From assembly GCA_009760855.2 (NCBI GenBank), contig WPIO01000014.1:2230001-2294000 (forward strand): 64,000 nt of DNA. The letters are read 5' to 3'. This document shows positions 4,647 to 47,900 of this stretch, piece after piece. Source of the stretch: Cristatella mucedo (lineage: Eukaryota; Bryozoa; Phylactolaemata; Cristatellidae). Within the stretch, counting starts at the first letter, position 1, and each line of letters starts with the position of its first letter. The notes under the pieces are model-generated. The model was given only the letters and a program-made list of their open reading frames with translations, ran no database searches and was not told the DNA's origin. A program made the translations under genes and the position numbers.

Positions 4647-6965
4647 CGTCAATCCTGGAAGTCGAAAGCACTACCAGCTATGCAAGTAATTCAAAGAAGT
4701 TTCACTTGTGCGAACACAAACACCAGTCATATTAAGCTCAGTGCTACCTACAGTCAGTTGGGTGCACTGATGGCAAAGAATTCTTTGCGATGCATTTGAT
4801 AACAAGGCATCTACGACATTGCTCTAAATGCAGTTGCGCCGAGCAAAAAAGTATCCGCATTCCAGCAGCTATGAAATAAACTATTATGTCATTGTTGGTG
4901 GCAACACACATTAGGCCTGTTACCCATAACGAATCAACAGCCAGGTAATCCAATAACACGCCACCTTAAGCCGAGACCCTCTAAGAATGCAGAAGAATAA
5001 GAAAGCTTCTGGTTTTTTAAACGGTTTAGAAAGAGAGCTAAAATTGAACCTAACTTCACAAAAGCGGGCACTGAATGCTATTTTACTAGCTTTACCCACC
5101 AGAAAAATCCAGACCTGAGCTAAAAATACAGCTGTAAGTTCTGGCTGGATTTGCACTGTATCCCTGAGAAAAGCCAGGTCAACAAGTTCAGTAACGAATA
5201 CTCCTGTAAAAGTGAAGTACAGGCCAAGTCCTGCAGAAACAGAATGTAATAATCAAGAGCAAACTCACTGCCTTAATTTTCTGATTGGGAGGTGTAACAA
5301 ATATGTTTTGTATCTGCGTCATCGAGGTAATGGTGAGAATCTCTTCTGAACATTTCATGTCGCCTATGAAAAAAAAGAATTCTATACAATACATAAAAGC
5401 ACAAAAGAAATATCAGGTCACAATGCATACTCGCAAGCACAGACCACCGGCAAAGACAACCAACTCTGACTGACTAGAAGTAAGAAAAGACGTCGAGTTT
5501 AGTCGTGTTCATCAGCAATTTTAAATAGTACAAGTCTTACTGGCAGACATTCAAAAAATCAATTACATGAAATATTGATGCTTGGAAACTGCCACAGCTT
5601 CAACAAACAGCAAAACAATAAACGGCAGCCATCCAAGACAGAACCTTAGTTTGCCTTTACCCGTCTCTTTGAATCCCTGACCTGCCTGGTCTGCAGAAAC
5701 AACGAGATCACGAGAGCCACATCTGCACTGACTTTTTTTAAAGTCACTTTGCATGTACAATCTTAGGTGGTAGCAGCATCACAATGTCAAACTCCAATCA
5801 GGAATTACTATGGAGTCCCTATTCGTTCGGGTTCTTTGAGAGTTTTCTATGACGTCAGGCATACTAAAATCCATCCCAGAAGACTTGCTGAGGCACTGAA
5901 GGAGCCTGCGCAGTACTGGAGAGTTTATTTTCGCTGTGAGCATGCAGCCATCATCTTGCCTAGGGAGCCAATGAGCTAATTTAGGCAATTTCTGTGGAAC
6001 GAATCAGCCCCGAGTCGCACGCTGGCACAGCCATTCGAGCCCAGCGGCGCAGCTCGCGCGCTGAAGCCGAGCTCAAAGCAGAAGCCACACTCGGTCACGG
6101 CGCACGTCAGTGTGCGGTCACGGAGCTCAGCGCAGATGAGAAGCGAGCGAGTGAGCCACAGCCAGCACTGCTTCGAGCTGACTTCCACTGACCGGAGCCC
6201 AGCAGCATCTTCGCAAACATCGGATGCAAAGGAAACTCAGCCATCTGGTGACCGAGAGGCCGAGTGAGATAGGCGGACTTATCCAAAGCTGCAACGACCA
6301 ACAGGCGATACAAGAACATGGCGGCGGCACGCAGGAACACTCATCTCGCTAAGGCAGCAGCCGGCACTTTCCAACGAGCTGCGCGTAAGCAGTGCAGGGA
6401 CGATCGGAGCTGGATCGACCACAGGCTGCTCAAGGCAGCGGGGGCAATGATAGCGAACCGGGCGGACATCGACAAAGGCCACGAGCTAGATCTGAACCTT
6501 CTGCAGCAGCACTTCGAAGCGGTGAAGCCAAGCGTACCTCCCAGGGCGTAGAGCAGCTCCACACCTCTGACCATGTTCTGTGCGGGTGGAGGCTGAAAGG
6601 AAAGTGATGACGTATGGCGCCGCCGCCGAAATCCAAGGGATGCCCTGCAGCCCAGAAAACTGACGCTCTCAGGTAGCCTAGCCAGCAGGGGAGAGGGAGG
6701 GGGCCGACGGCAGAGGAGCAGCGGTGGTGCCCACCCCATAAAGAGCCTCACCGAGAGGAAGCTGAATCGAACCACGTTGTCGATGCCGAGCGCTTTCATC
6801 TGCAGCACGACCGGCGCCAGGTCGCTGCGCTGCAGCTCTGGCACGGTCGCATCGGCCAGCTTCCGGTACTCCTCCTCTGCGAGACGAAACCAAAAGCTGA
6901 GCGACGGGGGCAAGGTACGATTGAAAGCAAGCAGCAATTCGAGCGGCCGCTAAAGAAATGTATGT

Positions 6966-6998
<33 letters not shown>

Positions 6999-7018
6999 GG
7001 GGGGGAGAGAGAGAGAGG

Positions 7019-7084
<66 letters not shown>

Positions 7085-17800: not shown

Positions 17801-20800
17801 TTTACTCAGCCACCGGGCCTTCTCCCCTACCCTCAGTCACCAAAAGATGCTCACACACACAGGCAAATCTAGGACTTGCCGTTTTTCCAGCAAGCTGCCG
17901 TCCCCATGGTAGCTTCCAATTCCTGTGAGAGAGAGAGAGAGAGCGGCCTCAAGCTAGTCTCGTTCAGGTCGCTTCAGTGAAAGGTCCTCAGGCTGAGACT
18001 CATTGTTTAGGGGCCCTGGGCACTGCCAGTTTGACTTGACCCACTCCTGGCATGCTCAGCCAAGCTGAATCTACAGCAGCCATCACTCATTCCAATAAGA
18101 CGAGCGTTCTTTGTGGTGATAATTTCTTGTTTATGAAGTGCTAGCAACGTGCCCTTATCGGCCACGCAGGCAGTGCACCATCGTCCACAAATTGTACAGC
18201 AGAGCTATCTACTGCCGAGACGACCAAATGAGGAATTGACGAGGGGCGGCACATCTGCAGAATCCCCCTGACTCTCTCTCGCACATAAAAATGTTCAAGA
18301 TTATGTTCTATGCGACCATATTCTTAAAATGTGTATATTTAAACTTGGTGGCTGTTATAGGTTAAATTGGTCGATTTGATAGCATTTCTGCAAGTGCGGT
18401 GGATGCTCTTAGTTAGAGCCTTGGTCGTCGGTAGCCATATAATGTTGTGCCAATTTCCTTGTCAAGACCTTTACTTCCTGGAACACTCCAAGCTGCAGGG
18501 GCCTCTGAAATACGCCTATTGCGGGGTGCAAAACTACCAATGGCCGAAAGTGTATAGTGCTACTACTGGCAACCACAACACCAATTCCTTTGATAGGCAA
18601 ATGCACCAGGTTTCTCAAATAGGCAGCATACAGTTTCCATGACCACTTGTGAAACCTGTTGGTTTCCCATGGAGTATGTAACACAGCGTACCTTCACCCG
18701 GGTTTTTCCTTCATCAAGGCAGGAGTCAAATCGAATCTTATAGCCGATCACATCTCCAAGTTGGCAGCCTCTCTCTTCTGCAACACGCGATGCTACCTGA
18801 AATGATTCACTTGATTCTGTTCAAGGATTTCGTCATTTTTTGCACGATAAGGTGTCAGTGTTAACAAACTTATCATTTGCATATGACAAATATGAACACA
18901 CAAACACACACAGGTTTATGTCTGTAAGCATAAAAAATAATGAGAAACAGATTTGAATGATACCTAAAATTAACCAAGGAGAAGCCTAGATTATACAATA
19001 ATGACAAACAAGGAAGCTATCACTAACCAATTTACATGCTTCCTTTCTAGGATATGTAAAGTGCCTAGACCGAATCAGTTCTCTTACGATAATAGACATG
19101 TGTCATTATTATTATGATTATTAAGAAAATGCGAAAGTTCAAAGATAGAAGAAATGTGGTGAATGATAATGTTTTATTATGCTAGCAAGACGTACAGGGC
19201 TTGGTCAATATGAACTTTAGGAACGCTAGTTTTTCCCAGATAGTTTGACTAAAAGCTAGTGGTTAGATTTTTCCAAAAATGGATAACTTCAAGATAACCC
19301 CAATTAACCAACAGCCTAATGTTTAGAAGCATTTGTAGCGGCTATAAGACATCAATAAGTGCACTACTGCCATATACATGGCAGCAATCTACTTTCTTAT
19401 CAAAAGAATGCTTAACCTAATTGCTCGACCATTAAGAAATGCAGGTAGTCCCTGATCCTAATATAGCATTTTGAAGTTAGTCGTGAAATTCAGGGACGTG
19501 AAATTCAGGGACATTAACGCTAGGCTACGGCTGCAAAACCCAACAACCGGCTCCGGATCCCAACATTGAGCAAACTTGTGCAGAATCGCAGAGCAGCGGA
19601 AATGCACGGCAATATTCGAGGCTCTCTTTAGCCTCATTTGAAGTCATTTGCACCTTTCAGAAGCAGCGCACGTGTCCCAGAACCACACTGCATAGCGCAT
19701 GTTGCTTGCACTCTCCATGCCGAGTGCACCCACTAATTCTGCTAGCCGGTTGGACTGGGTGCATTGGCGTGAATAAGGCCTCTGACTTCGTAGCTTGAGG
19801 GTTAGACCTCCAGTGACTACACGCTCTTATTCCTTCCTAAGCACTAGTATAGCCTTTTGGGGTGTCTAGCACTAAGGCTTTGCTCTTCTAATAGGTGATG
19901 CTATCGTGTGACCATCACCACGCGCTCGAAATTTAGGTGTCGTTTTCGACAGCTGCCTCAATTTTAAAAGCTTCATTCAGAAGACTGATTCTACAGCTAG
20001 CCATCACGCCCGATCCCTATCCAAGATTAGGAGCTGTCTCCCACAGTTGCTTGTAAAATTTTTAACTAGCTCCTTAGGTCTGTCTCGGCTTGATTATTGT
20101 AATTCCCTTTTGGCTGGGCTGCCAAAGAAAGCTATTTGACCACTGCAGCTGACTATGAGTATGGCTGCAAGGCTAGTCTTCAAGTCCAAGAGGTTTGACT
20201 ACATGTCTCCTTTGCTGAAAGAGCTAGGATGGATGCCGGTTGAGCAACAGATACAGAGCAAAGTTCTTACGCTGACCCACAAGGCCTGCCACGGCTTGGC
20301 TCCTGCGTACCTAGCTGAACTGCTGCACCTGTTTTAGCCTCTTCGTGCCCTCAGGTCCTGTGTGGACAATAAATTAGCTGTTCCATTCCTCCGCTTAAAG
20401 ACCGTTGGTGACAGAAGCTTTAGCTCTGCAGGTCCTAGACTGTGGAACTCGCTTCCACAATTCTTACGCAACGACAACTACTCTCCTACTGCCGACTATG
20501 GCTCATCCTTTTCAGCGGTCCTGAGCTGCTACTTTCATGCTACTCACTACCTCAACTGCTCTCCTGACTCTGCTATGCTTCCCACTTTCTCTTTGTTGCG
20601 TGAGACGAAGTCTGTTGGCTACCGAATGCGTACCGAAAGCCGCTTAGGCTGTGAGTGCGCTATACAAAACTCTCCTGCGTAACATCCACACGGTCTTTAT
20701 GAAATTGTGGAGTTACAGACGGAGATACATTACATTACATTGCTGTACATAAATCCGGTTGACGAGCTTAGCTAGCTACTTCTTCTCCCCCTCAGCGATC

Positions 20801-20931: not shown

Positions 20932-23900
20932 TCAACTTCAGAAATAGGAAAACAAACTAGTTGGAGGAGCACCATAGGCCTAACCACAAGTGGTGTTTAC
21001 GAATAGGATAACTTAAGCCGCTAAGGTGCAAAATACTACGGAAGCTGCATCTTAGGCAAGTTTACTAGTCCTTCTTCCAGACCTTCGGGTCTTTTATTTT
21101 AAACAAGACTACTAAAGTGCAAGCTGTCAGCAGCTGACTTAAGGATATCTGAATTGCCTGGCTTTTTGCTGCAACCGACTGTGGAGTCGCTGCCGTGAAG
21201 CCGTTTTCCAGCATTTTGCCACGACTACCGTGTAGATTACCACATAAAAAATGCAAACATATGCCCAGGGCATCAATGGAGGTTCATGTGTCAATTTACT
21301 CACCGATCCAAGGAATAGAGAGCGATCAATTGTCGAGTGAAAGAATGACTGGAACAACGTGAACTAATTGTGCACAGCCGAACAGTGGGCACTTCACAAA
21401 GATTGAGGCACAGTGCTATCTAGCTCGATGCGGGTTGTTCACATAAGACGAAAACTTCCTCAGGCAAAAGAAGTTTGTGCCTGAATTTTCAAAATTATAA
21501 GAAAAACCATGCGATTGTGTACGACAGCTGCACATAGATTTCTATTTCACTTGGCTCCGAGTCGGCAGCCTAGGTATTCCTTATGTTTGATTAGATGCAC
21601 AGATTGTACCGACATCTTTATGATCGACTGAGCTTAGAAGCTCCGGTTTAGGTTCCTCATAGGCTTAACACTGATCCACTGATTGGCAGTACTGAAACAG
21701 TTTAGAGCACAGCAACGTTCCAAATTTGACTCAAGATTGAGTCATATAAGAATGGTAAAAGCAAAGAAAATACAGTATGTAACAGGACCACGAAAGCCGG
21801 CACTAGTAAACAGATGAACTTCTTGAGTTCAGAAATGGAGAAAAGTGGCACACAAGGGGACATTTAGCGATCAGATGAAATGTGGCATGCAAAAATGTCA
21901 ATTGATAAACATGCACTCCCAGGATTATCAGTATACCAGTTAGACAGAACAATGAGTTGTAAACACATACGGTTGACTAAAAAAGGGACTCGATATCTGC
22001 TTCGGTTTACACAGCACAGGATTTGAGAGGTCTACTGAAGCTTGCAGCCGGCCTTCATTCACACCACACATTGGAATTGTGGAAATTGTAGAGTATTTAG
22101 GGGCACACATATGTACATCTGTGCAAATGTGAGCATCTGTTTGTCGATGGGGAAAAACAAATGTCATTTCCAGCATTAACTCAAACCCCCAAGCAAGGAT
22201 GCACTTACTGTGACAGCGGACACACGGCGAGGCTGTGTGACAGCTATCTTCCTGCCGTGGTTTGCCCAGCCCACCTCGAGCAGATACTACAATTTACGCA
22301 CCGCTGACGTTCAAGTTTAAAGATGCAGGAATAAAACTACATGCAGGACCATTGCAGGTACATGAACCTGCCGAGATCACATAGAGAGGAGCATTGGGCA
22401 CAGCATACTCAAAGCCTGGTACGCTGCAAATGTATCACAATCTCGCACAGTAAATGCACATTCAGTGCCTCAGTTCTGTTTACCTCCTCCTGCTGCTACC
22501 CAGCATGTGCTCAAGTCAGCACCTGGTCATAGCACCTTTTGCCTTTATATGCACGTGTGTATGTAATCTCACATGCAAGCCCATCTCTGCTTTTGTACAT
22601 ACGGGCATGCATGCATGACAAGCAAATGTACACATTTGGTACGACATGGCCACGCATTTGCACATTCAGCAAAAATAGCCATCAGCAAAAACTGCTGAAC
22701 TCAGTCGTCACAGTCGTGAAACGTCACTGTGGCTTAAAAAAAGAAATACGACCAACAGATAAGAAGGCAAACTTTTCCATTACGTAAGCTAATTCAGATA
22801 AAAAATAATTACAAGTCATCTCTGCACTTCCAGAGATTGCAGGCTGTCCTTTATTTGTGAATTCATGGCTCATTTTTCAATTCATGGTAGATCTTTGAGC
22901 CACAAGCTTACAGTGCAAATTCAACAGTGGGTATCAAAACTCGCTTATTGCAGTAAGCTGCAGCTATGCAATGATATGCTTTTTGAGACTAAGGGAGGCT
23001 TGCTTTCCAGAGCATTTGAAAAAACAACTGACTTGGCTTCCTCAATAAAAGGCAAAATACTTCAATGTATACTTGTTCCACACAGCTTTTGCTATGTCCA
23101 TGTGAAATGTCCTGTTGTGTGGTGGTACATACAGAAACTGTTCACATTGTGGCCAAGGGCAACAGCAGCATGCTTTGTATAGCCCAGAGTGGACCTGTCT
23201 TTTTCTGTCTGCATTGTTAATCTATGCATGATTAAGTGAGTGTTCCTAACTGGGGTTCCTACTAACACGAGATCGTGAGTATTTTATGTTCTTTTCCATG
23301 CTGGTCTGAGCATGATAATTGTATTTTGTACATGCTTGCCTAAGCATGATACCTTGCTTTTCAATAACTGCTGGTTAGTGCTTCTCTTACAGCAAGTTTT
23401 CAGGGGCATGAATAGAGATTACATTCTCTTAAGATGCTATACAAAAGATATTAATATAATGACTATTATTATTATGTTTGTTAAGACACCTGATGGCCCA
23501 TTGGGTCTAAAGGTGACACAAGTCTAACCACATTTGTTTAATAATAATAATGATAATAATACATTTGATATAGCACCCTCAGAGAACTCAATCTCTTTCT
23601 AGGCACTACATCAGCTGCAAAGGAAGCACGATCGAATGGTTAGTGGAAGCATGCTCAATAAAAACAAGAATAACATGGTTAGGGGTGACTTACACAGGGT
23701 CAGCATGCAAGTATGGTTAGTGGCAGTATGCACAGTGTCAGCACGCATAAGCATATAAAGATCGAGTCACAGGGACCCACTAAATGCTGTGATAAATAGA
23801 TGTGTTTTAGTTTTTTTTAATGTAATCAAGTCAGGAGATGTCACGATGCAAGTCGGAAGTGAGTTCCAGGCTTGGGAGCTTACAAACTAAAGGCACAGTC

Positions 23901-26469: not shown

Positions 26470-29400
26470 GGCACAACAACTTGGTGCACTCTGGGAATCA
26501 AAATAAATCTCAAGCCTTACAGTGTATGCAATCAAGGCCAAAAGATACTGCCACAAGGTAGGATTAATAGAGGAAAGGAATTAATCCTGCAAATTATGCA
26601 TGCTGGCACCTTGGTTAGTCAACTAGAAGTAAAACATATGCACAAGTTTGGCGGTTTCAAGTGGGTTCAGAAACGGTTTCGGTATTCGAAGGAGAGTTTT
26701 TCTTAGCACCATCACAACAGGATGAAGCAAGAGTGTTTTGATGTTCCAAGTATCCCGTCTCAAAATATGCATCCAACAAGTGTCAGGTAGTTTTTCAGAA
26801 ATTGTCAAAGTTTTAGACATCTGGTTTCATGAATGGATAGGCCAGAAATAGTTTGAGACTGAGCAAGAAAGAAATCGATAGTGCAGTTAAAGCAACAAAC
26901 CAACCAAGTACCTTTCCTGATAAAAAAAAGAGCCATGAAACCATATACAGTTGCATTAGAAGTCTTGGCAAACACCAGATCAAACTGAGGGAATTACGAC
27001 AGAAATAATTTAAAAGAGGTCCTAAATTGCTTTTTTTTATCAGAAAAAGGCTGGTATGTGGTTTTCTATCCTATCGGGTCATCGATTTCTTCCAGCATTT
27101 CAAAACCTTCTCAAGAATGTGCCACAGTCGGCAGCAGGAGAATAGATGTTGCATAAGAATTGTGGTGGGAGTGAGTTCCACAGTCTAGGACATGTAGAGC
27201 AAAAGCTTCTGCCGCCAACTGTCTTTAAGCACAGTAATGGAGCAGCTAATTTATTGTCCATAGAGGATCCGAGGAGGCAGAAACAGATGCAGCAGTTCAG
27301 CTAGGTATAAAGGAGCCAAGCTGTACCGGGCCTTGCGGGTCAGCATAAGAACTAAACTCTTTATCTGTTTATCAACCTGAAGCCGTTGAAGCTCCTCCAG
27401 CAAGGAAGACACATTGTTTAACATCTGGGATTTTTTAACTAGTCTTGCAGCCATATTTATTTACAGGTGAAGTGGCCTTGTGGCTTTTTCCGATAGCCCA
27501 GCTAAAATGGAAGTTGCAATAATCTAGCCGATGCAGAACCAGGGAGCTAGCTATTTTTTCCAACCTACCGTGGTAGGAAGTCCCTAATCTTAGATAGGGA
27601 TCGGACGTGATGGCCAGCTGTGGAGGAAGTCTTCTTAATGAAACTTTCATGATTTAGGCAGCTGTCAAAGAGGACAACTAAATTCCGTGCATACGGTCAC
27701 AGTCGCACAACAGCAGTATCTATTAGAAGATCAAAGTCTTCTAGTCCAGCCACATCCAGGATCGAATGACTGCCAGGCAAGCAAGCATTCAGTTTATCAG
27801 TCGCTGCAGCCGATTCTGACGGCTTAAACGACAAATACAGTTCAGTATCGTCAGCATAAAAGTGACAGCCGAGTCCATGTGCCCGAATCACTTTTTCCAG
27901 AGATTCAGTATAAAAGTACTATATATACAGGTATAACAGAATATACTAGTAGGAGCTGGTATACACTCAAATACTAACGCAAATAAGTTCTTAACTTCTT
28001 TCTTTATTAGAATAGTTCATATACACTCCCAGATGATTCCAGATACCAAAATGCTAAAATGAAGCTACGTTATCTTAGTGGCCTGAAGATGATTAGCCAA
28101 GTTTATTTAGAGATCCAGTCTACTGCAACCGGATTAATCTTTTAAGACATCAATGCCCTATTTTACCTCGCAGAAAACGTCGAACAGTGGTACAACAATG
28201 AACCAGCATACTTCACGACTCCAAAGATAGATAGCCAACACATGTCTTTTCGCATGATGGTTAAAAAAGAAGAATGATGCCAATCAATTATAATGCCAAT
28301 GTAGATTCCACAAAGGCAGCATTTGCCGTTCTATCGTGTGCATTATCCTTGACCAGAAATAAACAGTTCACTATTTTCATCCTATTATAGTCCGTAAAAA
28401 ATAAATACTAATATTAATAAAATAATAATAAAACAAGAATATTACTGAATATTTCCTTATATTCAAATATACAAACATATCTTTCTAAAAAAAATCGGCA
28501 CGACAGATATTTCTAGCGCCTATGCATTTACATTCATCAGTGCATGCTGGTGATGAGCCAGCAGACTTTCAGTAACAAGCTTGCCGATATACTGAGATCA
28601 AATAAAATTGGATGCTCAGGAAACGCATGCACACACGCGCGCGCACACACACACAGACAAGCACGCATGCATGCACACACTGCACAACAAAGCTCATGAG
28701 AAAAGCAGAGGCCAGCTTGCACTTTTGCTGTTGTTTAATGCTACGACTCACCTGAGGTATCTGTGTACTTTTTCCACTCCCAGTTTCACCAACAATAATG
28801 GTGGTTTGAAAGTTCTCGAGCAGGTAAAGAATGCTGTTTCTGTACTGCACGTAAGAAATTATTTTGGAAATCGTTAGCAAGTTTAAAAGGTAGAAACATA
28901 ACTGAGATGCTTTGACGTTTGATCACAAGACAGTGCGATGGGGATCACAGGAGGACCATTGACCCCTGTATCGTCGGCCACACCAGGTTGATTCCAAAGG
29001 ATGATCACAGTGCGCATTGACCAGAGGAGAATACGCCACTAATGCCTGCTGCTGTTAAAAGTAAAAAGGATTTTGCAACAGCAAGCTAAACATAGAACCT
29101 GCTTATGCTTTGAATTAGGTAGATAAAATGAGCGAATGTATGACAGCTGATTAGACATCATGCTAATGGCTTTGAGGTATTATTGAGATACAGACAAAAG
29201 TGACATGGATTAAGACAAAGACCACTTGGTCATATGGCCCAAACACTACGACCCACGCTAAGCTCTGGCCACAACACTATATATCCAAATGTGCTGGAAG
29301 GCTCTGCATGACGTGTGTAAATATAATATACACATTGTTCTCTTAACAATAATAATACATTCTGCTGCAGCAAGAAAATGCTCATAAGCCGTTCAGCTGG

Positions 29401-30957
29401 AACTGTAAATATATTCAACTAGCATGAGATTGTGTAGCCAAGAACAATGTATGTTGAACGATTAGTCATAAATAGTAAGACCGCCATTCTTCATGGTTGC
29501 CAGATTTTACTGGACTTGGAAAACTGAAAGATGTGCCTGGACATTGAAAGCTGAAAACAGCAGAACTATGCTCTTGTGTGGAAACTGCACACCTTCCAGC
29601 CTGGCAGGCCGAGCTACTTATTCGAGCGTTCAAACAAGTGGCGTGATCATCTGCAAAGTGCCTAGAAAGAGATTAATTTCTCTGAGGGTGCTTTACAAAT
29701 GTATATTATTATCAACCCCGGTCAAAGTGATTGTATTTGATGACCGAGGTGGTGTGCTCAAGCCCCATGGCATATGTGAAGTGCCTGAATAGAGATGAAG
29801 TTCTCTAGGGGTGCAATACAAATAAATTATCTATTATCTATTTATTATTCCCTTGAAGGCCAATCAATCCCAATGAAGTCATTTTTCGTATGTCTCAATT
29901 ACCTTGTCATTCTCTCACAGCACTAGCTTATACCTCCTTGCTAAAGCCAAATAAAAAAATCATGCGTTCGGCCTCGAGTCACACTCACTTCGTGCAAGTG
30001 GAGAGTATGTGAGTGCCAAACCAAGTCCTAAAGGCGGCAACATAGATATATATGTTAGCTCATAAAGCACCTACAGCCATCTATTGTGGGCCTGCAGCTG
30101 TCTGCGTGCAGTCTTGTGAGTGCCCGATCATCGATGGTTGATGTTGGTTGCAGGTGTAGGAGAGAATTACCACCACGAGGTTGCCATGAGCAACAGCTAC
30201 AGTTGGGCTAGACACACGACCACCTAGGGCTCAGGCACTTATTGTACTGTAAGCGTAGGCCAAAGCTCAGTAGCTACGAGTGCATCGACTCTGTCGGATG
30301 TGCTTTACGAAACTGCACGAGGACTTGAACACTTGCAAGCCTTACTGATGATCCAAGCTTGCAAGCTGGGCGAACACACTGCTAAAAGAGTCGGCCAGAC
30401 ATTCGATACACTGGTCAAAAAACTATCTCGAGTGCGAGCAGAGGCCGAATACTCAGACAGGGAGACGAGGTCAATAGCTTTAGTGGCACGCTCGGCATCC
30501 GGACGTGGACCGGTGATGTTGGCTGGGTGATGATGCACGGCGGCGGCATAATGGCTTTACAGCCGCATAAGTTCTTGACTGGCTCGCTGAATAATAATTG
30601 GAAGAAGATTCATTTTAAATTACCTTAAATACAGGGAGCTTCTCTCTCTGCTGCTGAATGGACAGCGCAATGTATGGGTTGTACGCAACTGCGGCGGGCT
30701 CGCTATCTCTTTCTTCTTTAAGAGCCTCACCGGGAGCTTCGGTACCTGAAGGAGCCACAAAAACGGATGCTCGCGGCAGTAGCGGATCGGCTAAGCATGA
30801 GCAGGTCGTCATCCAAGCCTGGATGACGACGTACAGAAATGCTCGCGCCGCTCGCCACTGAGTGCCCCGGCGACGAGCAATTGGATAAGATACTGGCTTC
30901 GACGAAAGTGAAGTGCAACTTACCGGGCTTCCAAAACTTTGCTGTGTAGTGAGCCAT
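1014..30957 (-). CDS. DHX35: DHX35, DEAH-box RNA helicase of the spliceosome (24 coding exons)
   Basis: Joined exons (high to low): 30957-30924, 30745-30624, 28844-28752, 22286-22209, 18796-18692, 15521-15460, 12876-12807, 12189-12130, 12040-11928, 11041-10945, 9891-9860, 9573-9489, 9340-9244, 9111-9058, 7335-7237, 6876-6752, 6592-6538, 6288-6193, 5363-5269, 4155-4078, 3979-3850, 3774-3615, 1854-1743, 1058-1014. All phases match; total 2097 nt, 698 residues plus TAA. Motifs by residue: [10 protein letters not shown] 71-79, Ia TQPRRVSA 100-107, Ib TDGML 147-151, II DEVH 170-173, III SAT 202-204, IV FLTG 274-277, V from 334, [10 protein letters not shown] 382-389, then the winged-helix, ratchet and OB-fold region. 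Known for the family: ATP-driven 3'-5' RNA helicase found in spliceosomal C complexes with the G-patch protein GPATCH1. Collinearity with human DHX35 to the C terminus makes the assignment firm. DEVH in place of DEAH is unusual. Confidence 0.96.
1743..1854 (-). CDS. DHX35: DHX35 exon 23
   Basis: Acceptor TTATAG, donor ACG|GTAAGT, 37 codons. Encodes [20 protein letters not shown], then [17 protein letters not shown], matching VVYNEVIQTSKYYMRDVTAIESAWLLELAPHFYQQGT. Read-through would add only seven residues, so splicing to exon 24 is preferred. Confidence 0.94.
2732..3501 (-). mobile_element. L2-clade LINE, family 1, 5'-truncated copy
   Basis: Lies in DHX35 intron 22, in the same orientation as the gene. 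The minus strand reads the C-terminal part of the LINE protein ([20 protein letters not shown], later [20 protein letters not shown]), then a 3' UTR and an AAT-type tail next to a G-run. The fragment of about 160 residues is open and looks young. The 5' end is lost within the RT thumb region. Confidence 0.9.
3615..3774 (-). CDS. DHX35: DHX35 exon 22, OB-fold region
   Basis: Acceptor TTGTAG, donor TG|GTGAGA. This is the largest coding exon at 160 nt. Encodes [20 protein letters not shown], then [19 protein letters not shown], matching the OB-fold region of human DHX35 ([31 protein letters not shown]). Confidence 0.95.
3850..3979 (-). CDS. DHX35: DHX35 exon 21
   Basis: Acceptor TTGCAG, donor G|GTGAGT, 43 codons plus one base. 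Encodes [20 protein letters not shown], then [17 protein letters not shown], collinear with KWCQEHFLNYKGLVRAATVREQLKKLLVKF. It is separated from exon 22 by a 75-bp intron. Confidence 0.95.
4078..4155 (-). CDS. DHX35: DHX35 exon 20
   Basis: Acceptor TTTCAG, donor AAG|GTAAAC, 26 codons. Encodes [20 protein letters not shown], then YLAFIK, matching FAVEEGDHLTMLNIYEAFIK. The basic DKKKR replaces VHRK of the human sequence. Confidence 0.95.
4590..4643. repeat. CG/CA dinucleotide microsatellite
   Basis: A short alternating CG tract runs into about 22 CA units. It lies in DHX35 intron 19. Alternating purine-pyrimidine DNA of this kind can form Z-DNA. Confidence 0.95.
5269..5363 (-). CDS. DHX35: DHX35 exon 19
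   Basis: Acceptor TCATAG, donor GCA|GTGAGT, 31 codons plus two bases. Encodes [20 protein letters not shown], then PPNQKIKA, matching CSQEILSIAAMMQIQNIFVVPPNQK of human. Confidence 0.95.
6193..6288 (-). CDS. DHX35: DHX35 exon 18, ratchet region
   Basis: Acceptor TTGCAG, donor G|GTCAGT. Encodes [20 protein letters not shown], then [11 protein letters not shown]. The block LT.PLG..MAEFPL.P..AKML is typical of the DEAH ratchet-like domain. Confidence 0.95.
6538..6592 (-). CDS. DHX35: DHX35 exon 17
   Basis: Acceptor TTTCAG, donor G|GTACGC, 55 nt. Encodes [18 protein letters not shown], matching [19 protein letters not shown] of the human protein. Confidence 0.95.
6752..6876 (-). CDS. DHX35: DHX35 exon 16, winged-helix start
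   Basis: Acceptor TCGCAG, donor TCG|GTGAGG. Encodes [20 protein letters not shown], then [19 protein letters not shown]. This matches the winged-helix region of human DHX35 (STVPEMQRSNLAPVILQLK) that follows the helicase core. Confidence 0.95.
6967..7210. repeat. GA-rich microsatellite filling DHX35 intron 15
   Basis: About 240 bases of GA repeat with G-runs on the plus strand. On the DHX35 transcript this is a pyrimidine-rich tract occupying most of the 360-bp intron between exons 15 and 16. Long open frames across it are repeat artefacts. Confidence 0.95.
7237..7335 (-). CDS. DHX35: DHX35 exon 15, motif VI
   Basis: Acceptor TTTCAG, donor G|GTAGCT. Encodes [14 protein letters not shown], then [18 protein letters not shown]. 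Motif [10 protein letters not shown], supplies the arginine finger; relatives have QRAGR(A/G)GR. The following intron is almost entirely a pyrimidine-rich repeat on the transcript strand. Confidence 0.95.
8202..8278 (+). mobile_element. L2-type LINE family 2, 3'-end fragment
   Basis: Matches the extreme 3' end of the copies ending near 20,740 and 48,090 (GAGTGC.CTATACAAAACTCT followed by AACACCCACA). It is a diverged fragment of about 75 bp in DHX35 intron 14, antisense to the gene. Confidence 0.6.
9058..9111 (-). CDS. DHX35: DHX35 exon 14
   Basis: Acceptor TTGCAG, donor G|GTGAGT, 54 nt. Encodes [18 protein letters not shown], nearly identical to YVIDCGFVKLRAYNPRTAI of human DHX35, just after motif V. 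Confidence 0.95.
9244..9340 (-). CDS. DHX35: DHX35 exon 13, motif V
   Basis: Acceptor CTCTAG, donor G|GTGAGT. Encodes [16 protein letters not shown], then [16 protein letters not shown]. Motif V is usually ATN(I/V)AETSITI.G; here the conserved Thr-Ser-Ile is Ala-Ser-Val and a Pro precedes Gly. Confidence 0.93.
9489..9573 (-). CDS. DHX35: DHX35 exon 12
   Basis: Acceptor TTGCAG, donor CAG|GTGTGG, 28 codons. Contains [15 protein letters not shown], matching the family block LRVLPMYAGLPSFEQ. The stretch before it ([13 protein letters not shown]) is shorter than in human and accounts for part of the small length difference. Confidence 0.92.
9860..9891 (-). CDS. DHX35: DHX35 exon 11 (32-nt microexon-like)
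   Basis: Acceptor TTTGCAG, donor AT|GTAAGT. Encodes [10 protein letters not shown] plus two bases of an Ile codon. It matches EEVETVVSMLIE of human DHX35. At 32 nt it is the shortest coding exon of the gene. Both splice sites are strong, and the phases on each side require it. Confidence 0.88.
10058..10185 (+). mobile_element. Probable old copy of SINE family 2
   Basis: A tRNA-like head (GATAGCAC...) and a diverged B box (GGTTAGAGTCC) are followed by AAGGCTATTGAACCAGC, close to the 3' part of the copy at 56,470 (AAGGCTGCTAAACCAGC). It lies in DHX35 intron 10. Confidence 0.4.
10516..10868 (-). mobile_element. L2-clade LINE family 1, 3' fragment
   Basis: Contains the AAT tail, the TCTAGGCGC-type 3' UTR segment (diverged) and the last part of the coding region in the same order as the copy at 2732. 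More diverged than that copy. It ends about 75 bp from DHX35 exon 10. Confidence 0.8.
10945..11041 (-). CDS. DHX35: DHX35 exon 10, motif IV
   Basis: Acceptor TTACAG. Encodes [17 protein letters not shown] and GDILAFLTG (motif IV). The best donor is GTG|GTATGT, giving FLTG-Val-Glu-Glu across the junction where relatives have FLTG-Gln-Glu-Glu. A weaker donor three bases earlier would delete that residue. An L2 fragment ends about 75 bp downstream in the intron. Confidence 0.88.
11090..11165 (-). mobile_element. SINE family 2 fragment (tail side)
   Basis: AGAAAACCCTTTGCGACTAT resembles the reversed tail of SINE family 2 (CAGAAGAGCCTTTGCGGCTA at 25,745). Only the tail half is recognisable. It lies in DHX35 intron 9. 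Confidence 0.3.
11773..11808. repeat. CA microsatellite
   Basis: About 18 CA units in DHX35 intron 9. Confidence 0.95.
11928..12040 (-). CDS. DHX35: DHX35 exon 9
   Basis: Acceptor TTGTAG, donor GA|GTAAGA, 37 codons plus two bases. Encodes the start of the second RecA domain, with [15 protein letters not shown] matching the family block TVEGRTFPVDIFY. The preceding stretch (HFYNYF...) is less conserved, as in other animals. Confidence 0.9.
12130..12189 (-). CDS. DHX35: DHX35 exon 8, motif III
   Basis: Acceptor TTTTAG, donor CAG|GTATGC, 20 codons (residues 189-208). Encodes [20 protein letters not shown] is motif III, which links ATP hydrolysis to unwinding. The intron between this and the next exon is only 89 bp. 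Confidence 0.96.
12285..12582. mobile_element. hAT-type non-autonomous element (298 bp)
   Basis: Ends are inverted: CAGTGGCAGA at the left and TCTGCCACTG at the right. They are flanked by near-identical 8-bp duplications, CCTGGAGG (12277-12284) and CCTTGAGG (12583-12590). Eight-base duplications and CAGTGGC ends are hAT hallmarks. The interior has two long G-runs and no transposase ORF. It lies in DHX35 intron 7. Confidence 0.75.
12807..12876 (-). CDS. DHX35: DHX35 exon 7, Walker B (DEVH)
   Basis: Acceptor GGCAG, donor AAG|GTGAGA. Encodes [19 protein letters not shown]. Motif II reads Asp-Glu-Val-His where human DHX35 and most relatives have Asp-Glu-Ala-His. The catalytic Asp, Glu and His are kept, so ATPase activity is expected. 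Confidence 0.95.
13420..14992 (+). mobile_element. L2-clade LINE family 1 with intact reverse transcriptase half
   Basis: Lies in DHX35 intron 6, antisense to the gene. It starts within the RT domain and runs through the 3' UTR to an ATT tail (about 14,966-14,992). The short match TAAATAGGG on both sides may be the target duplication. The endonuclease domain is missing, so the copy is dead on arrival, but the remaining frame is unbroken. Confidence 0.92.
13421..14752 (+). CDS. L2 ORF2 fragment: reverse transcriptase and C-terminal domain
   Basis: 443 codons, open, without its own start because the copy is 5'-truncated. Reverse transcriptase motifs in order: [17 protein letters not shown] (first catalytic Asp), [14 protein letters not shown], and [12 protein letters not shown] with the YADD active site at about residues 160-163. 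The end holds [20 protein letters not shown] and [10 protein letters not shown], typical of L2/CR1-like LINEs. In a complete element this protein reverse-transcribes the LINE RNA at nicked genomic DNA. Confidence 0.92.
   Translation, partial: LLPFLSKTLERVAADQLNSYIETSHLASKFQSGFRANHSTESALLRVYNDLLRNADMGRVSLLVLLDLSAAFDTIDHKVLLERLSSRLGITGTALQWFRSYLSGRLQSVDANGQRSSEVPLKYGVPQGSVLGPVLFTVYTLPLADVIAKHNLGFHFYADDTQLYLCFDPSQPSSTSNSLNSLAACIDDIRSWMAANFLKLNDDKTNLLVMGKPSVIQKLERLTFKIGSASISPVASARNLGVIFQSDLSLDDHISSTVKSAYFQLHNIAKIRACLDKDTTSKLVHAFVTSRLDFCNSLLTGLPACAIRRLQLVQNSAARLVCREHRSCHITPLLADLHWLPVKQRIDFKVLSLTFRSLHSMAPAYLSDILPHQAKHRTTRFSESNSLEIPHTNLKSFGDRAFSSYAPTAWNSLPTCIRTSPDLTTFKRNLKTYLFRTAFSGSL
15460..15521 (-). 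CDS. DHX35: DHX35 exon 6, motif Ib
   Basis: Acceptor TTGTAG, donor AG|GTACTT, 20 codons plus two bases. Encodes [25 protein letters not shown] is the RNA-contacting motif Ib of DEAH helicases. The short exon sits between a 3.2-kb and a 2.6-kb intron, and the latter contains an L2 insertion. Confidence 0.93.
18692..18796 (-). CDS. DHX35: DHX35 exon 5
   Basis: Acceptor TTTCAG, donor AAG|GTACGC, 35 codons (residues 110-144). Encodes [10 protein letters not shown] and GYKIRFDSC. The latter matches the family block GYCIRFDDC that ends in RIK before motif Ib. Confidence 0.95.
19055..19125 (+). mobile_element. L2-type 3' tail fragment
   Basis: AAAGTGCCTAGACCGAATCAGTTCTCTTACG-type tail, ending in ATTATTATTATGATTATT. 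It corresponds to the last 60 bases of LINE family 1. No more of the element is visible upstream. Confidence 0.5.
19893..20741 (+). mobile_element. L2-type LINE family 2, 3' half
   Basis: Lies in DHX35 intron 4, antisense to the gene. Encodes pieces of the C-terminal region ([15 protein letters not shown], then [20 protein letters not shown]) with several stops, then [20 protein letters not shown] and an ACATT-repeat tail at 20,727-20,741. Very similar to the right half of the copy at 45,810-48,092. Confidence 0.88.
20853..20926. repeat. GA microsatellite
   Basis: About 37 uninterrupted GA units in DHX35 intron 4, 110 bases after the LINE family 2 copy. Confidence 0.95.
22209..22286 (-). CDS. 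DHX35: DHX35 exon 4, motif Ia
   Basis: Acceptor TTGTAG, donor ACA|GTAAGT, 26 codons (residues 84-109). Contains YLLEVGW and motif Ia, [10 protein letters not shown], which contacts RNA and couples to ATP binding. The intron before it is the longest of the gene at 6.5 kb. Confidence 0.95.
23380..23490 (+). mobile_element. L2/SINE-type 3' tail fragment
   Basis: GAATAGAGATTACATTCTCT, then AAGATGCTATACAAAAGAT and ATTATTATTAT. This is the tail shared by LINE family 1 and SINE family 1, without a recognisable body. Confidence 0.45.
23541..24150 (-). mobile_element. L2-clade LINE family 1 copy, interrupted
   Basis: Same 3' UTR and coding order as the copy at 2732, with more decay and frameshifts. 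It is interrupted at 24024-24117 by a second short copy of its own tail. It lies in DHX35 intron 3. Confidence 0.85.
24024..24117 (-). mobile_element. Tail-only L2 insertion nested in an L2 copy
   Basis: 94 bases consisting of an AAT tail and the last part of the LINE 3' UTR, flanked by GAATGAA on both sides (24017-24023 and 24118-24124). The host LINE sequence continues after the second GAATGAA. This is an extremely 5'-truncated insertion. Confidence 0.8.
25745..25870 (-). mobile_element. SINE family 2 copy
   Basis: On the minus strand a tRNA-like head with GGTAAGGTGCTCAC-type sequence is followed by GATCGTGG-like B-box remnants, then a GTGGTCGG/CCGACCAC hairpin and the AAGGCTCTTCT tail. 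Shares head and tail with the copies at 31,885, 48,693 and 56,468. It lies in DHX35 intron 3. Confidence 0.55.
26393..26462. repeat. CA microsatellite
   Basis: About 35 CA units in DHX35 intron 3. It produces long His-Thr and Cys-Val open frames that are not genes. Confidence 0.95.
27122..27905 (-). mobile_element. L2-type LINE family 2, decayed copy
   Basis: On the minus strand reads [20 protein letters not shown], then ARDLV-type and [10 protein letters not shown] stretches, ending at a 3' UTR with GTGGAACTC-like sequence. Many stops and frameshifts break the frame. The YADD motif is still visible. It lies in DHX35 intron 3, in the same direction as the gene. Confidence 0.85.
28752..28844 (-). 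CDS. DHX35: DHX35 exon 3, Walker A
   Basis: Acceptor GTGCAG, donor CAG|GTGAGT, 31 codons in phase 0. Carries motif [14 protein letters not shown], which binds the ATP phosphates. Human DHX35 has GETGCGKST; the Ser here is the commoner DEAH-family residue. Confidence 0.96.
29648..29716 (+). mobile_element. L2-type 3' tail fragment
   Basis: AAGTGCCTAGAAAGAGATTA, then TTTCTCTGAGGGTGCTTTAC and a short ATT run. This is the family 1 tail only. It lies in DHX35 intron 2. Confidence 0.6.
29718..29835 (+). mobile_element. SINE family 1, partial copy
   Basis: Diverged head (GACCGAGGTGGTGTGCTCAA, then GCCCCATGGCATATGTGAAG) followed by the shared tail TGCCTGAATAGAGATGAAGT and TCTCTAGGGGTGCAATACAA. It lies directly behind the L2 tail fragment. 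Confidence 0.55.
30624..30745 (-). CDS. DHX35: DHX35 exon 2
   Basis: Acceptor TTCAG|GT and donor AAG|GTAATT. Encodes residues 12-52, from TEAPGE to the conserved [19 protein letters not shown] block. This block precedes the helicase core and is a signature of DHX35. Ends in phase 0. Confidence 0.95.
30924..30957 (-). CDS. DHX35: DHX35 exon 1 (start codon)
   Basis: Encodes [11 protein letters not shown] plus the first base of Gly12. FW.PG near the N terminus matches vertebrate DHX35 (KFWRPG). The ATG is followed by G. The donor is G|GTAAGT and the phase is 1. No other in-frame ATG gives a better match to the family. Confidence 0.9.
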
Positions 30958-31150: not shown

Positions 31151-31309
31151 ATTTTAAGTAAGGTTAGTTCAGTAATATTAATTTAATAATAAATATTAAG
31201 ATGCATCGTGGTGCAAAAGCCATGAATGTTTGAGAAGCGCTGAATCCGGTTTAGGGATCGTTGCAGCCGTTGCTGAGAGGGCGTGGCTCAGACATGGATT
31301 AGATTAGAG

Positions 31310-31496
31310 CAGCGGTTCTCAACCTGTAGGTCGTGACTCCTTTGGGAGTCAAACGACCCTTTCACTGGGGTCTCCCTAGACCATCGGAAAACACGCGTTT
31401 CCACATTTTGCACACAATAATTTTATAATTGGGGTCGCCATAACAAGAGGAACTTATTAAATAGGGTCGCGGCATTAGGAAGGTAGAGAACCACTG
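31310..31496. mobile_element. hAT non-autonomous element resembling SPIN/URR1
   Basis: 187 bp with inverted ends CAGCGGTTCTCAACCT and (reversed) CAGTGGTTCTCTACCT, matching at 14 of 16 bases. The flanks GATTAGAG (31302-31309) and GGTTAAAG (31497-31504) look like an 8-bp duplication with two changes. The interior (GACCATCGGAAAACAC, GAGGAACTTATTAAA, GGGTCGCGGCATTAGGAAGG) closely resembles, from memory, the SPIN/URR1 group of hAT-Charlie miniature elements known from rodents and other animals. No transposase is encoded. It ends 353 bases upstream of the DHX35 ATG. Confidence 0.82.
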
Positions 31497-31504
31497 GGTT
31501 AAAG

Positions 31505-32573: not shown

Positions 32574-32698
32574 TCATCGCTATCATCATCGCTATCATCA
32601 TCGCTATCATCATCGCTATCATCATCGCATCATCATCGCATCATCATCGCTATCATCATCGCATCATCATCGCTATCATCATCGCTATCATCATCATT
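32574..32698. repeat. 12-bp minisatellite (TATCATCATCGC)
   Basis: About ten units of TATCATCATCGC with shorter 9-base variants lacking TAT. Because both unit lengths are multiples of three, one frame reads Ala-Ile-Ile-Ile repeatedly. This is coincidence, not a gene. Confidence 0.9.
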
Positions 32699-34869: not shown

Positions 34870-35176
<307 letters not shown>

Positions 35177-35989: not shown

Positions 35990-37036
35990 CGGTGTATGAC
36001 GCAACTCTTTCGGTGGGAGGGGAGCGGTAATTGCGGTCGGCGTGCCGCTTCAAGGGTTAGCAAAAATGCCACCGACCTTCTTTGCGGGTCGGGGGCGGAG
36101 CTCGCCGGACGGACGGCTCGCCGCCTTCTGCGGGCCACTCTGGCCACTCTCTCGAAAGGAGTGCGCACTTATTTTCAAGCGGCGTCCAAAGGTGCTCGCA
36201 AGGGTTTGCTCGCTGGAGGCGTCGAGCTCCCCCCCCCCGCGCGTGCAGCCAGGCGTCGCACCGATTGTGGCTGGCTTTGGCAGCTCCTCGCGGGCGGGGC
36301 GAGAAATCGTCGGCGAGCCTGAGTCAGAATAAGTGCCTACAAGAGGAAGCTACCATTTATTCTCGAGAGGCTACCACACTTCACGACGGTGCTGCTGCTA
36401 AATTGGCCGCCGGCTGGGGCACGCAGCTGCGCTGCTTCGGCGGTTTGCCTGCGTACGGCGGCAGGCAGCCAGGCGGTGGACAGTGAGCTGAAAAGGGATT
36501 CTTTGTCTGCGCGCGTGCGTGCGGCGCGCGCATGTGTATGCGACGTACCTGTGTCCTCGATAGATTTCCGCAAATCATTCTCCTGGGCTAGAGACTAAAG
36601 TCTTTTTTGAACCCCAATTGCTAGAAGATGTGCAGCTAAATATCAGCGAGCGAAACATGTCACTAAGCAATGGGGCGAGATACGATTATTACTAGCCGCA
36701 GCGAGTCGCTTAAGGATTTGAAAAAACTCTGCGATCGTCCGACGCACCGCATTGTGAGGGCGGCGGCCCAACAAGGAGCATACTTTCAGCGAGCCGTAAA
36801 AGCTTTTCGTTAAATGCTCCCAAGCACGACTTACTGATGATGACCGAGCATGGAAATTGTATTTCATTTGTCGAGATAACTGTGAGCGCTTCCAGCCAAT
36901 AATAGTAATTGCTACCTTTTTCGCAGCACAGCTAAAGCAAGCAAAGTCCTGCGCGATCCAACCACATGGCTGCTTCAAATAGACTGAGAATACTTCGGGA
37001 CGAACGTCTGCTGGGGCTACAGGTGAAGCCCAGTCT
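35990..37036. other. GC-rich intergenic block, nothing recognised
   Basis: 35,990-36,560 is strongly GC-rich with many CpG, unlike the DNA before it. Long frames exist on both strands but none has a recognisable domain. The rest up to the L2 copy is ordinary. Confidence 0.4.
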
Positions 37037-37037
37037 C

Positions 37038-38605
37038 CCTTCTACCATTCCTATCAAAGACACTGGAACGGGTCGTGGCAAACCAGCTAAACTCATATAT
37101 CGAAACCTCACACCTTGCTAGTAAGTTCCAGTCTGGCTTTAGAGCTAATCACTCCACAGAGTCAGCATTGCTTACGGTATACAACGACCTACTTAGGAAT
37201 GCAGACATGGGTAGAGTGTCTCAGCTTGTTTTGTTTAATCTTTCGGCAGCTTTTGATACCATCGATCACAAAGTTTTTCTACAGAGCCTCTCATCTCGCC
37301 TGGGCATCACTGGCATTGCTCTGCAGTCGTTCAGGTCCTATCTCAGTGGGAGACTCCAGAGTATTGACGTGTATGGACAAAGATCATCTGAGGTACCTCT
37401 GCAATATGGCGTACCTCAGGGCTCCGTGCTAGGTCCGGTTCTTTTCACGATTTATACTCTGCCTCTTGCTGATGTGATTGCCAAGCACAATCCAGGCTTT
37501 CACTTCTATGCGGCTGACATTCACTTGTACCTTTGCATTCATCCCTCCCAGCCTCCGAGCACCTCAAATTCTCTCAACTCACTTGCTGCATGTATTGATG
37601 ACATCCGATCATGGATGGCAGCAAATTTTCTAGTACTAAACGATGATAAAGCTAACTTACTAGTTATGGGCAAACTCAGTGTGATTCACAAATTGAAAAG
37701 GCTGAAGCTCAAAATTGGCTCTGCCAACATATCTCCAGTTGAATCAGCTCGAAATCTAGGTGTTATATTCCAAAGCAACCTCTCGTTAGACGACCATATC
37801 AGCTCCACAGTCAAATCTGCCTATTTTCAGCTTCATAACATGGCTAAAATTCGGGCTTGTTTAGATAAGGATACCACATCAAAGTTGGTCCATGCATTCG
37901 TGACATCTCGTCTCAACTTCTGCAACTCACTGCTTACTGGCCAACCGGCATGTGCAATCAGGCGATTGCAGCTGGTGCAAAACTCTGCAGCTAGGCTTGT
38001 CTGTCGTGAGCATCGCAGTTGCCACATTACTCCACTTCTCGCCGACCTGCACTGGCTACCAGTCAAGCAACGGATTGACTTCAAGGACTTGTCGCTCACT
38101 TTTAGGTCCCTTCATTCTTTGGCTCAAGCATATCTCTCAGATATACTACCCCCATCAGGCCAAGCATCGTACCACTCGCTTTTCGGAATCCAACAGTCTA
38201 CAAATACCCCGTACAAACCTCAAATCCTTTGGAGACCGTGCATTTAGTTCATGTGCTCGCAAAACCTAGAACTCCCTCCCGACCTGCGTCAGAACATCCC
38301 CTGACCTGACCACATTTAAAAAGAATTTAAAAATACACCTACTTAGGACAGCATTTTGTGGGTCCCTGTGATTTGTCCTTCATGTGCTTATGCGTGCTGA
38401 CACTGTACATGCTGCCACTAACCACACTTGCATGGTGACCCTGTGCATGTCACCCCTAACCATGTTATTTATGTTGTTTGTTAAGCATGATATTACTCAC
38501 CATTCAATCGCGTTTCCCTTTGCAGCAAATGTAAAGCGCCTAGAAAGAGATTGAGTTCTCTGAGGGCACTTTATCAAGTGCATTATTATTGTTATTATTA
38601 TTATA
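37038..38605 (+). mobile_element. L2-clade LINE family 1, RT domain to tail
   Basis: Starts at the same LINE position as the copy at 13,420 and continues to an ATT tail. The open frame runs 37,075-38,247 and is then frameshifted before the C-terminal region. The active site reads YAAD instead of YADD, so the enzyme would be dead even if expressed. Confidence 0.92.
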
Positions 38606-44900: not shown

Positions 44901-47900
44901 GTCGCTTAGCTTTGTGCCGGTCTCGGCTCCGGCGAGCTGCTCCTGCTCCAGCCGAAACCTCTCGGTCTCACGCTCGGCCTCCGCATCCGTCAACCACGAG
45001 AAGATCAGGATTAATTCATTTCGCAGCTTGTGGTAATCTTGCTTTACGTCGGCCGGCTGACCACCCCAATCGTGTATCGCGTTATCGCCCAGACACACTG
45101 GTGCAACATGTTTTAATGGCATCGCAATCTTTAGCCTTGCTACAGCCTTCTCAACCATTAGAGGCCAAGGCATAAAGTGCGGTCCGCCGTTAAACATTTC
45201 GTACCTCAGTATAGGCGTCCCACCTAGACTATAGAAGGTCTGGTATTCTTTTCGGTACGAGTAAACCATTCTCTGGTGCCAGTTGTTGCGTGACAGTGGC
45301 TCCGGCCGAGGCTGTTCTTGTGAGAGTCTCACGGAGACACAGCGGGCGCACTTTCGTGGTAAACGAAACTCTCTTTATTACTCTCAACGGGCACAAATAT
45401 GAGAGCGCGATCAATCGCAGCAGACGATACGAAATATAACATGCATTAGTGGCCTGACGCTTTGCTGCGTCAATGGCTTAACTATTTGCCAAGGTGAGGC
45501 ATATACATTTGTGTCAAGGAGCTTTGCTAATTACAGCGGCAGAAGCCGCAGGCGCACACAACGCAGAGCAAAAGCTTCTGTCGCGTAGGAATAGAATAGC
45601 TAATTTATTGTCCATAGAGGACCTGACGGCTTGAAAAGGCTGAAAGTGGTGCAGCAGTTCAGCTAGGGTGACCAGCGTTTCTAGCCCAAGAGGCTTAAGC
45701 TTAGTGGTTTAGGTTGAAGCGTTGAGGTAACGGGATTGGACGCTGGTTGGCATGCTACTTCTTTGTGATGTTTGTTATGCAGGTTAAGTTTGTGATGCAG
45801 GTCTTCTTCATCTGCATTCAGACTCGACCGGCAGCCTCGATACCCTCACTGATGCTACGAACATGACACTCAGAAGTGCTCTTGACAAGCATGCTCTCGT
45901 TCATTCTATCCGTGTTCAAAGTTGTGGAGATTCCTTTCAATTTACAAAGAAACTCCTAAAGATGCACCGGGTTAAGCGCAGGCTTGAACGTCGTTTCAAG
46001 AAATCGGGGTCTGATGCAGATCTAGTCAATTTCAAAGACTTCCTTCAATTTTACACCCGAAAGCTTTAAAAAACCAAGGCTTCTTTTTTCATTAGAAAGC
46101 TGAATTCCTGCCAGTCGGACACTAAACAGATTTATAAGACAGTAAAACATTTACTGGCCAATGCTGAGATGTCCAACTCCCCAGATATTAAGGGCTCAGC
46201 CGAAAAGTTTTCAGCCTTCTTTACTGAAAAAATTGTGCACATTCGTGCCTCCATCAAGCCCCCTACGACTAAAACAATCTGGTTCCACAACCTGTGACCT
46301 TCCTTAAAAGGTTCTCCGAGGTTTCTGCATGCGATGTGGCTACCTTAATAAGGTCTAGCAAAAAGAGCTCGTCTCCTGAAGACCCTATACCCTCATCTCT
46401 GTGGTCTTCACTTGCAGACCAACTTAGCCCTGCCATAACCAAGATTTTTAATGCTTCTTTGGGAAAAGGGGTCGTCCCCAAGTCCTTCAAACCGGCAATC
46501 GTTAGACCCATTCTTAAAAAGCCTGGATTAGACAGAGAGGTCCTTGCAAACTATCGCCCAGTTTCCCTTCTTCCTTTCTTATCAAAGATTCTTGAAAAAA
46601 TTGTTGCTAAGCAGCTGGTTGAACATATTGAAAATAATGGAATGTCAGAAACATTTCAATCAGGGTTCAAGAGGCAGCACTCCACTGAAACTGCTCTCCT
46701 CCTTGTTAACAATTACATTCTATGTGGCAACGACGGGAATGTCACTGCCCCAGCTCTGCTAGATCTGTCAGCTGCCTTCGACACCATTGATCACGAGGTT
46801 CTGCTTGAACGATTGAGAACAACGATCGGTCTGGCAGACGAAGCACTGGCGTGGTTTAAATCCTACTTGTCTGATCGAGTTCAATCCATGTCGTGTGGAA
46901 GTCAGGTCTCACAAACGAGAAGGGTCACCTGTGGAGTCCCTCAAGGGTCCGTACTCGGCCCCTTGCAGTTCTCCATTCATACACAACCTCTGGGAAAAGT
47001 CAGTAAGGCCCATGGACTAGGATATCACTTCTATGCTGACTATACTCAGTTGTATTTGTCATTCAAACCGTCGGAATCTGCTGCAGCAACTGAAAAGCTG
47101 AATGCTTGCCTTGCCGATATTTGATCCTGGATGTCGGAAAACTTCCTGAAATTAAATGATGATAAAACTGAACTGCTGCTCATAGGACACCCTAAGCGTG
47201 TGGCTATCGATGCTATTGTGATGGTATTGGGGATGGTGGTGATGATGATGGTGATGCTTTTGTGCGACCATCACCACGTGCTCGAAATTTAGGTGTCGTT
47301 TTCGACAGCTGCCTCAATTTTAAAAGCTTCATTCAGAAGACTGCTTCTACAGCTAGCCATCACGCCCGATCCCTATCCAAGATTAGGAGCTGTCTCCCAC
47401 AGTTGCTTGTAAAAGATTTAACTACCTCCTTAGTTCTGTCTCGGCTTGATTATTGCAATTCCTTATTGGCTGGGCTGCCAAAGAAAGCTATTAGACCTCT
47501 GCAGCAGACCATGAATATGGCTGCAAGGCTAGTCTTCAAGTCCCAGCGGTTTGATCACGTGTCTCATTTGCTAAAAGATCTAGGATGGATGCCGGTTGAG
47601 CAACAGATACAGAGCAAAGTTCTTACGCTGACCCACAAGGCCCGCCACGGCTTGGCTCCTTCGTACCTAGCTGAACTGCTGCACCAGTTTTAGCCTGTTC
47701 GCCCTCAGGTCCTGTGTGGACAATAAATTAGCTGTTCCATTCCTCCGCTTAAAGACCGTTGGTGACAGAAGCTTTAGCTCTGCAGGTCCTAGACTGTGGA
47801 ACTCGCTTCCACAATTCTTACGCAACGACAACTACTCTCCTACTGCCGACTATGGCACATCTTTTTCAGCGGTTCTGAGCTGCTACTTCCATGCTACTCA

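Follow-up and report, generated by a model that had tools for sequence, protein, structure and literature searches.

SPIN (SPACE INVADERS) transposons are a classic example of DNA passing from one animal phylum to another; to our knowledge, the question of what carried them between hosts is still open. Transfers into mammals are dated to 15 to 46 million years ago (PMC5857283), and 385 SPIN elements are reported from the painted turtle (PMC4054807). Invertebrate hosts are described as well; Rhodnius prolixus carries SPIN, with fewer than five SPIN copies within piRNA clusters (PMC11614815), and the snail Biomphalaria glabrata is reported to have about 1,000 copies of a hAT transposon whose identity to SPIN is significant, together with no intact DNA-transposon transposases (PMC5440852). 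A comparable system in the Tasmanian devil, OC1, is described as a 2,571-bp autonomous element with a 192-bp internally deleted miniature transposon (MITE), amounting to 5,208 copies in all with a star-like phylogeny (PMC3621081).

The window analyzed here is a stretch of 64 kb, and its positions 31310 to 31496 are a complete miniature hAT transposon (Table 1). The element is most like the non-autonomous SPIN elements of the hAT Buster group, with which it appears to share the ends CAGCGGTTCTCAACC...GGTTGAGAACCACTG and the interior GACCATCGGAAAACAC (by provisional SPIN letters), 8-bp target duplications centered on TA, and a parent of about 3 kb with a transposase; it differs from them in its host, here an invertebrate whose mitochondrial gene order is mollusc-like. 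The B. glabrata element likewise has a lophotrochozoan host and about 1,000 copies, but the host species is different and the likeness is one of description, not of sequence (PMC5440852). The present assembly does not agree with that snail in genome size, G+C, or mitogenome size. The R. prolixus elements share an invertebrate host and non-autonomous copies, although that host is an insect (PMC11614815). OC1 has the same architecture of an autonomous element plus an internally deleted MITE but is a separate family with its own sequence; it is likened by architecture and not by sequence (PMC3621081).

Table 1. Coordinates of the transposon and of the neighboring DHX35 gene in the window.
Feature	Position	Strand	Evidence
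Non-coding MITE (hAT, SPIN-type), 187 bp	31310..31496	+	19 mismatches and 1 gap against the 186-bp genome consensus
5' terminal inverted repeat	31310..31325	+	14/16 complementary to 3' end
3' terminal inverted repeat	31481..31496	-	14/16 complementary to 5' end
Left target-site duplication GATTAGAG, degraded	31302..31309	.	6/8 identical to right copy
Right target-site duplication GGTTAAAG, degraded	31497..31504	.	6/8 identical to left copy
DHX35 first coding exon	30621..30812	-	30621-30749 = human residues 13-59 (phmmer, 9s2f chain 35); open frame from MTTCSC
DHX35 human residues 59-89	about 28752-28844	-	protein match
DHX35 human residues 90-118	about 22200-22286	-	protein match
DHX35 human residues 114-151	about 18689-18802	-	protein match
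DHX35 human residues 149-379	in pieces, from about 15.5 to about 9.1 kb	-	protein match
DHX35 human residues 404-469	within 6341-6949	-	protein match

The 5' end of the window element, CAGCGGTTCTCAACCT, matches CAGTGGTTCTCTACCT, the reverse complement of its 3' end, at 14 of 16 positions, its 3' terminus reads AGGTAGAGAACCACTG, and its 8-bp flanks, GATTAGAG and GGTTAAAG, agree at 6 of 8 positions. The three sequence pieces quoted by the original prediction are present where it placed them, and the proximity to DHX35 that it described is confirmed as to location; the likely start codon of DHX35 is a methionine at 30810-30812 in the frame of the first exon, with the transposon about 500 bp upstream. 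The third frame of the upstream part gave no protein match, and one other search returned only a piece that had been placed before. Neither an nhmmer search nor a profile of 40 copies found a second copy of the element within the 64-kb window.

The host assembly (572 Mb in 688 contigs) holds many relatives of this copy. Of 2,055 first-look candidates from a search with the window element, 40 were scored, namely the window copy and a further 39 that are nearly full length and 86 to 88% identical to it. When up to 3 mismatches are allowed, 716 + 742 = 1,458 places genome-wide match a 25-base piece from the 3' half, whereas the control with the pattern reversed matches 0; the match in the window is therefore not due to chance. 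All 40 full-length copies, the window copy included, align to one clear consensus of 186 bp, from which their differences are mostly private. When this consensus was used as the query, 40 of 2,336 candidates were scored, the best being 97% and the 40th 94% identical. Copy number and divergence were among the checks that the original prediction had proposed, and they come to well over a thousand copies and, in local alignments of the 40 copies, to 3.2 to 9.7% from the consensus (mean, 5.3%), in a sample that is non-random since the 39 were picked for resemblance to the window copy. The window copy diverges from the consensus by 8.1% locally and by 10.2%, or 19 mismatches and 1 gap, globally; it is a dead, decayed member of the family and looks typical of it by divergence. 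Transitions at CpG sites reach 8.1% in the 40 copies, compared with 2.8% at other sites, an excess of the kind that methylation of CpG sites in the host germline would leave.

The first 100 places listed for the 25-base piece, which end at contig C244, are all exact. With 46% (64 of the 139 transposase hits described below) or 52% (21 of the 40 scored consensus hits) of other matches lying below C244, extrapolation from the listed rows implies about 190 to 217 exact places. A rough reckoning, which assumes equal divergence in all copies, puts the family at about 1,700 copies, each diverged by roughly 8%, and the burst of amplification looks old rather than ongoing. Contig C66 carries two exact 25-base pieces at 88281-88339, on the same strand and 34 bp apart, which suggests a tandem duplication within one copy.

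The target sites and termini place the family among hAT elements of the Buster group. The flanking octamers of the 40 copies match at 8 of 8 positions in 8 copies, at 7 in 15, at 6 in 6, and at fewer in 11, so that duplications of at least 6/8 accompany 29 of 40 copies (the window copy, at 6/8, among them), as opposed to 129 of 2,000 control pairs in which octamers were paired across different copies. The short terminal inverted repeats expected of a hAT element are present in the consensus too, with 15 of the first 16 positions matching, compared with 14 of 16 in the window copy. TcBuster is described as having the target consensus nnnTAnnn, in a paper that places SPIN in the Buster family (PMC3499496), and the same test is reported for another MITE (PMC3517528). 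Here, TA occupies octamer positions 4 and 5 in 30 of 40 left and 32 of 40 right flanks, against a background TA frequency of 0.057, and such TA-centered duplications are a Buster-group signature. The consensus is non-coding, is present in high copy, and shares its ends with longer copies, as is characteristic of a MITE.

Longer copies were sought with a putative Buster-type transposase segment, which gave 139 genome hits. The best two of these 139 are L086 (54% identity), about 3.1 kb long in a fetched piece that ends two bases before the element end, and L087 (40% identity), of 2,956 bp. The 5' end of the MITE is found in them at 91 and 88% identity and the 3' end at 87 and 89%, respectively, and the two copies are 82 to 83% alike over their main two blocks, compared with 77% over the initial 498 bases; both are broken, with longest open frames of 192 and 118 residues. 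The third- and fourth-best hits (L088 and L089) had no significant SPIN ends. The L086 frame has a weak 25 to 31% local identity to other hAT frames of the host genome, from which, together with the match to the putative Buster-type query, the transposase of the long copies appears to be hAT-like. A Pfam search with two open transposase pieces of L086 returned no family at E 0.1, and a search of solved structures with the transposase pieces returned no transposase (0 hits; 3 unrelated hits).

The window MITE retains the first ~93 and the last ~80 bases of the long parent. Beyond this junction, L086 and L087 run on as ATTTCCGATGGTC..., which pairs back on GACCATCGGAAA and is presumably part of SPIN. 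A pattern laid over this stretch, designed after L086 and L087 had been read, matched 17 places genome-wide (control, 0), with A at its open position in 11, T in 4, C in 1, and G in 1; A is presumably the SPIN base. Eight of the 17 loci were read and comprise two long copies, five short ones (320, 484, 498, 553, and 608 bp), and one without a 3' end in the fetched piece. Three of the short copies (L090, L094, and L095) have blocks of 303 to 421 bp in common with the long copies, while L091 and L092 have no such block above 250 bp. The MITE looks like one product of internal deletion among several, the most numerous of those seen; the finding of long copies with MITE ends around a hAT-like transposase, together with copies of lengths in between, thus indicates that it arose by deletion from a SPIN-type transposon.

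How close this transposon is to SPIN itself was assessed against provisional SPIN ends that were recorded only after the consensus existed. The consensus matches these provisional ends at 91 of 93 and 67 of 69 positions and the window copy at only 81 of 93 and 62 of 69, so they agree more closely with the family than with the decayed copy, and the likeness to SPIN appears to extend, as originally predicted, well beyond the terminal 15 bases. Two reverse primers printed for the mouse Ate1 locus (PMC2767504) each match the consensus at 18 of 20 positions and on the same strand, one at the end of the element (with one primer base in the flank) and the other at consensus positions 56-75. Close identity to SPIN is likely from this comparison, which draws on provisional SPIN sequence and two 20-base printed primers.

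The same evidence bears on whether the family is instead a native Buster-group hAT of the invertebrate lineage that is SPIN-like through conserved ends, with no recent horizontal transfer. The SPIN side of the comparison consists of provisional letters rather than authenticated SPIN sequence, and shared Buster ends could inflate the apparent identity. Buster elements in general are described as sharing about 106 bp of terminal sequence, with TGGGTCGCG repeats near the Buster1 ends, and Buster families as having been transferred among invertebrates and a bat (PMC4298943). We nevertheless consider a native origin quite unlikely, since the consensus matches the provisional SPIN sequence over both ends, the mouse primers match it twice, and copies run past the MITE junction into a stretch that is presumably part of SPIN, while the Buster1 ends given as CAGGGCTTCTTAAAC (PMC4298943) differ from the CAGCGGTTCTCAACC of this family.

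The reading that we favor, with a probability of roughly 0.86, is that of a SPIN-type Buster-group MITE from an element of about 3 kb that entered an invertebrate lineage and then amplified and decayed. An autonomous SPIN element of roughly 3 kb would have entered the host lineage, most likely by horizontal transfer, and a hAT-type transposase, seen as broken fragments only, would have cut and pasted both the parent and its internally deleted derivatives. Insertion generated the 8-bp duplications centered on TA that flank the copies, one 187-bp derivative was amplified and then decayed, as the counts and divergence reported above show, and the window copy inserted some 0.5 kb upstream of where DHX35 translation probably starts. 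Horizontal transfer is our best inference from an apparent near-identity between very distant hosts. The split between protostomes and vertebrates is more than 500 million years old, and a non-coding 187-bp MITE is unlikely to have stayed near-identical to a vertebrate counterpart for that long, an argument that leans on the provisional SPIN sequence, when its own copies have already drifted by about 3 to 10%. Vertical inheritance of SPIN-type elements from the common ancestor of the two groups is for these reasons highly improbable, even though Buster elements are reported from bat, mosquito, sea urchin, zebrafish, and planarian (PMC3517528). Contamination of the assembly with vertebrate DNA, which the rodent-like similarity remarked upon in the original prediction might bring to mind, has a negligible probability given 1,458 places in a 572-Mb genome against a control of 0, 40 copies on many contigs with differing flanking octamers, and a window copy beside DHX35 on a contig of 7.25 Mb.

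Carriage of the element by a virus was unsupported by searches of IMG/VR and of phage records. A 16-base SPIN piece occurred in 4 IMG/VR stretches, in which matches to the element at that place reached at most 17 bases and nhmmer found nothing; the pattern of the 3' end gave 0 matches in IMG/VR; one IMG/VR stretch fit the peptide pattern of the transposase piece, and none encoded a relative; and the phage records gave no match.

The host itself is most likely a lophotrochozoan invertebrate. COX1 on the 21,008-bp mitochondrial contig (C688) reads through with TGA as Trp, and reading ATA as Met and AAA as Lys yields the residues expected at conserved positions, which indicates the invertebrate mitochondrial code and agrees with the expectation of a non-mammalian host that is not a rodent. 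Genes named by eye form the run nad1, nad6, cob, nad4L, nad4, nad5, within which tRNAs for Pro, Ser, Thr, His, and Phe are predicted, from an over-predicting list of 44. We take this run to be the order found in Katharina and in other molluscs and lophotrochozoans; the remaining order is rearranged. The contig (loci L049, L050, and L051) has protein genes on both strands and contains a 2,119-bp direct duplication plus an inverted partial copy of about 1.8 kb, all 100% identical. Fragments of COX1 with TGA codons, some with further stops, occur on contigs C166, C83, C549, and C299 and are probably mitochondrial insertions.

Since a SPIN-like hAT is already in print for a snail (PMC5440852), the present case probably adds one more host to a family already known; once named, the element is an ordinary one. 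Among the SPIN papers listed, mostly outside subscription journals, titles and abstract openings mention no further lophotrochozoan SPIN host besides Biomphalaria. One more invertebrate that carries long copies and shorter derivatives along with over a thousand MITEs is a new data point, and setting the divergence of its copies beside the values for bats, rodents, lizards, kissing bugs, and snails can put the invasions in order. It is conceivable, though in our view doubtful, that this lineage, as a SPIN host not reported before, took up the autonomous element itself, generated a MITE of its own, and could stand close to the donor or carrier from which tetrapods were invaded.

Other transposons in the host genome were considered as parents of the MITE and set aside. 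Young hAT copies, which gave the best Pfam matches to Dimer_Tnp_hAT, come from a different hAT family, and SPIN ends were found at 0 of 30 fetched loci. This other family (e.g., L053, L057, and L066) looks very young; the score is exactly 76.8 bits in 55 of 138 Dimer_Tnp_hAT rows, and its open frames reach up to 642 residues, with one of 1,947. Four loci read among 46 DUF4371 matches (L082 to L085) had no significant SPIN ends; at their DUF4371 matches, L084 (contig C645) and L085 (contig C244) have hAT-like frames that are 563 and 482 residues long.

Within the window, reverse transcriptase frames (Pfam RVT_1) at 13412-14752 and 46273-47124, both on the plus strand, look like two different non-LTR retrotransposons, and fragments resembling them lie at 2967-3515 (minus strand) and 37027-38247 (plus strand). 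Long dinucleotide arrays of AG, CA, TC, and GA are also present (6966-7210, 34873-35174, and others), as is a 12-bp tandem array at 32574-32695.
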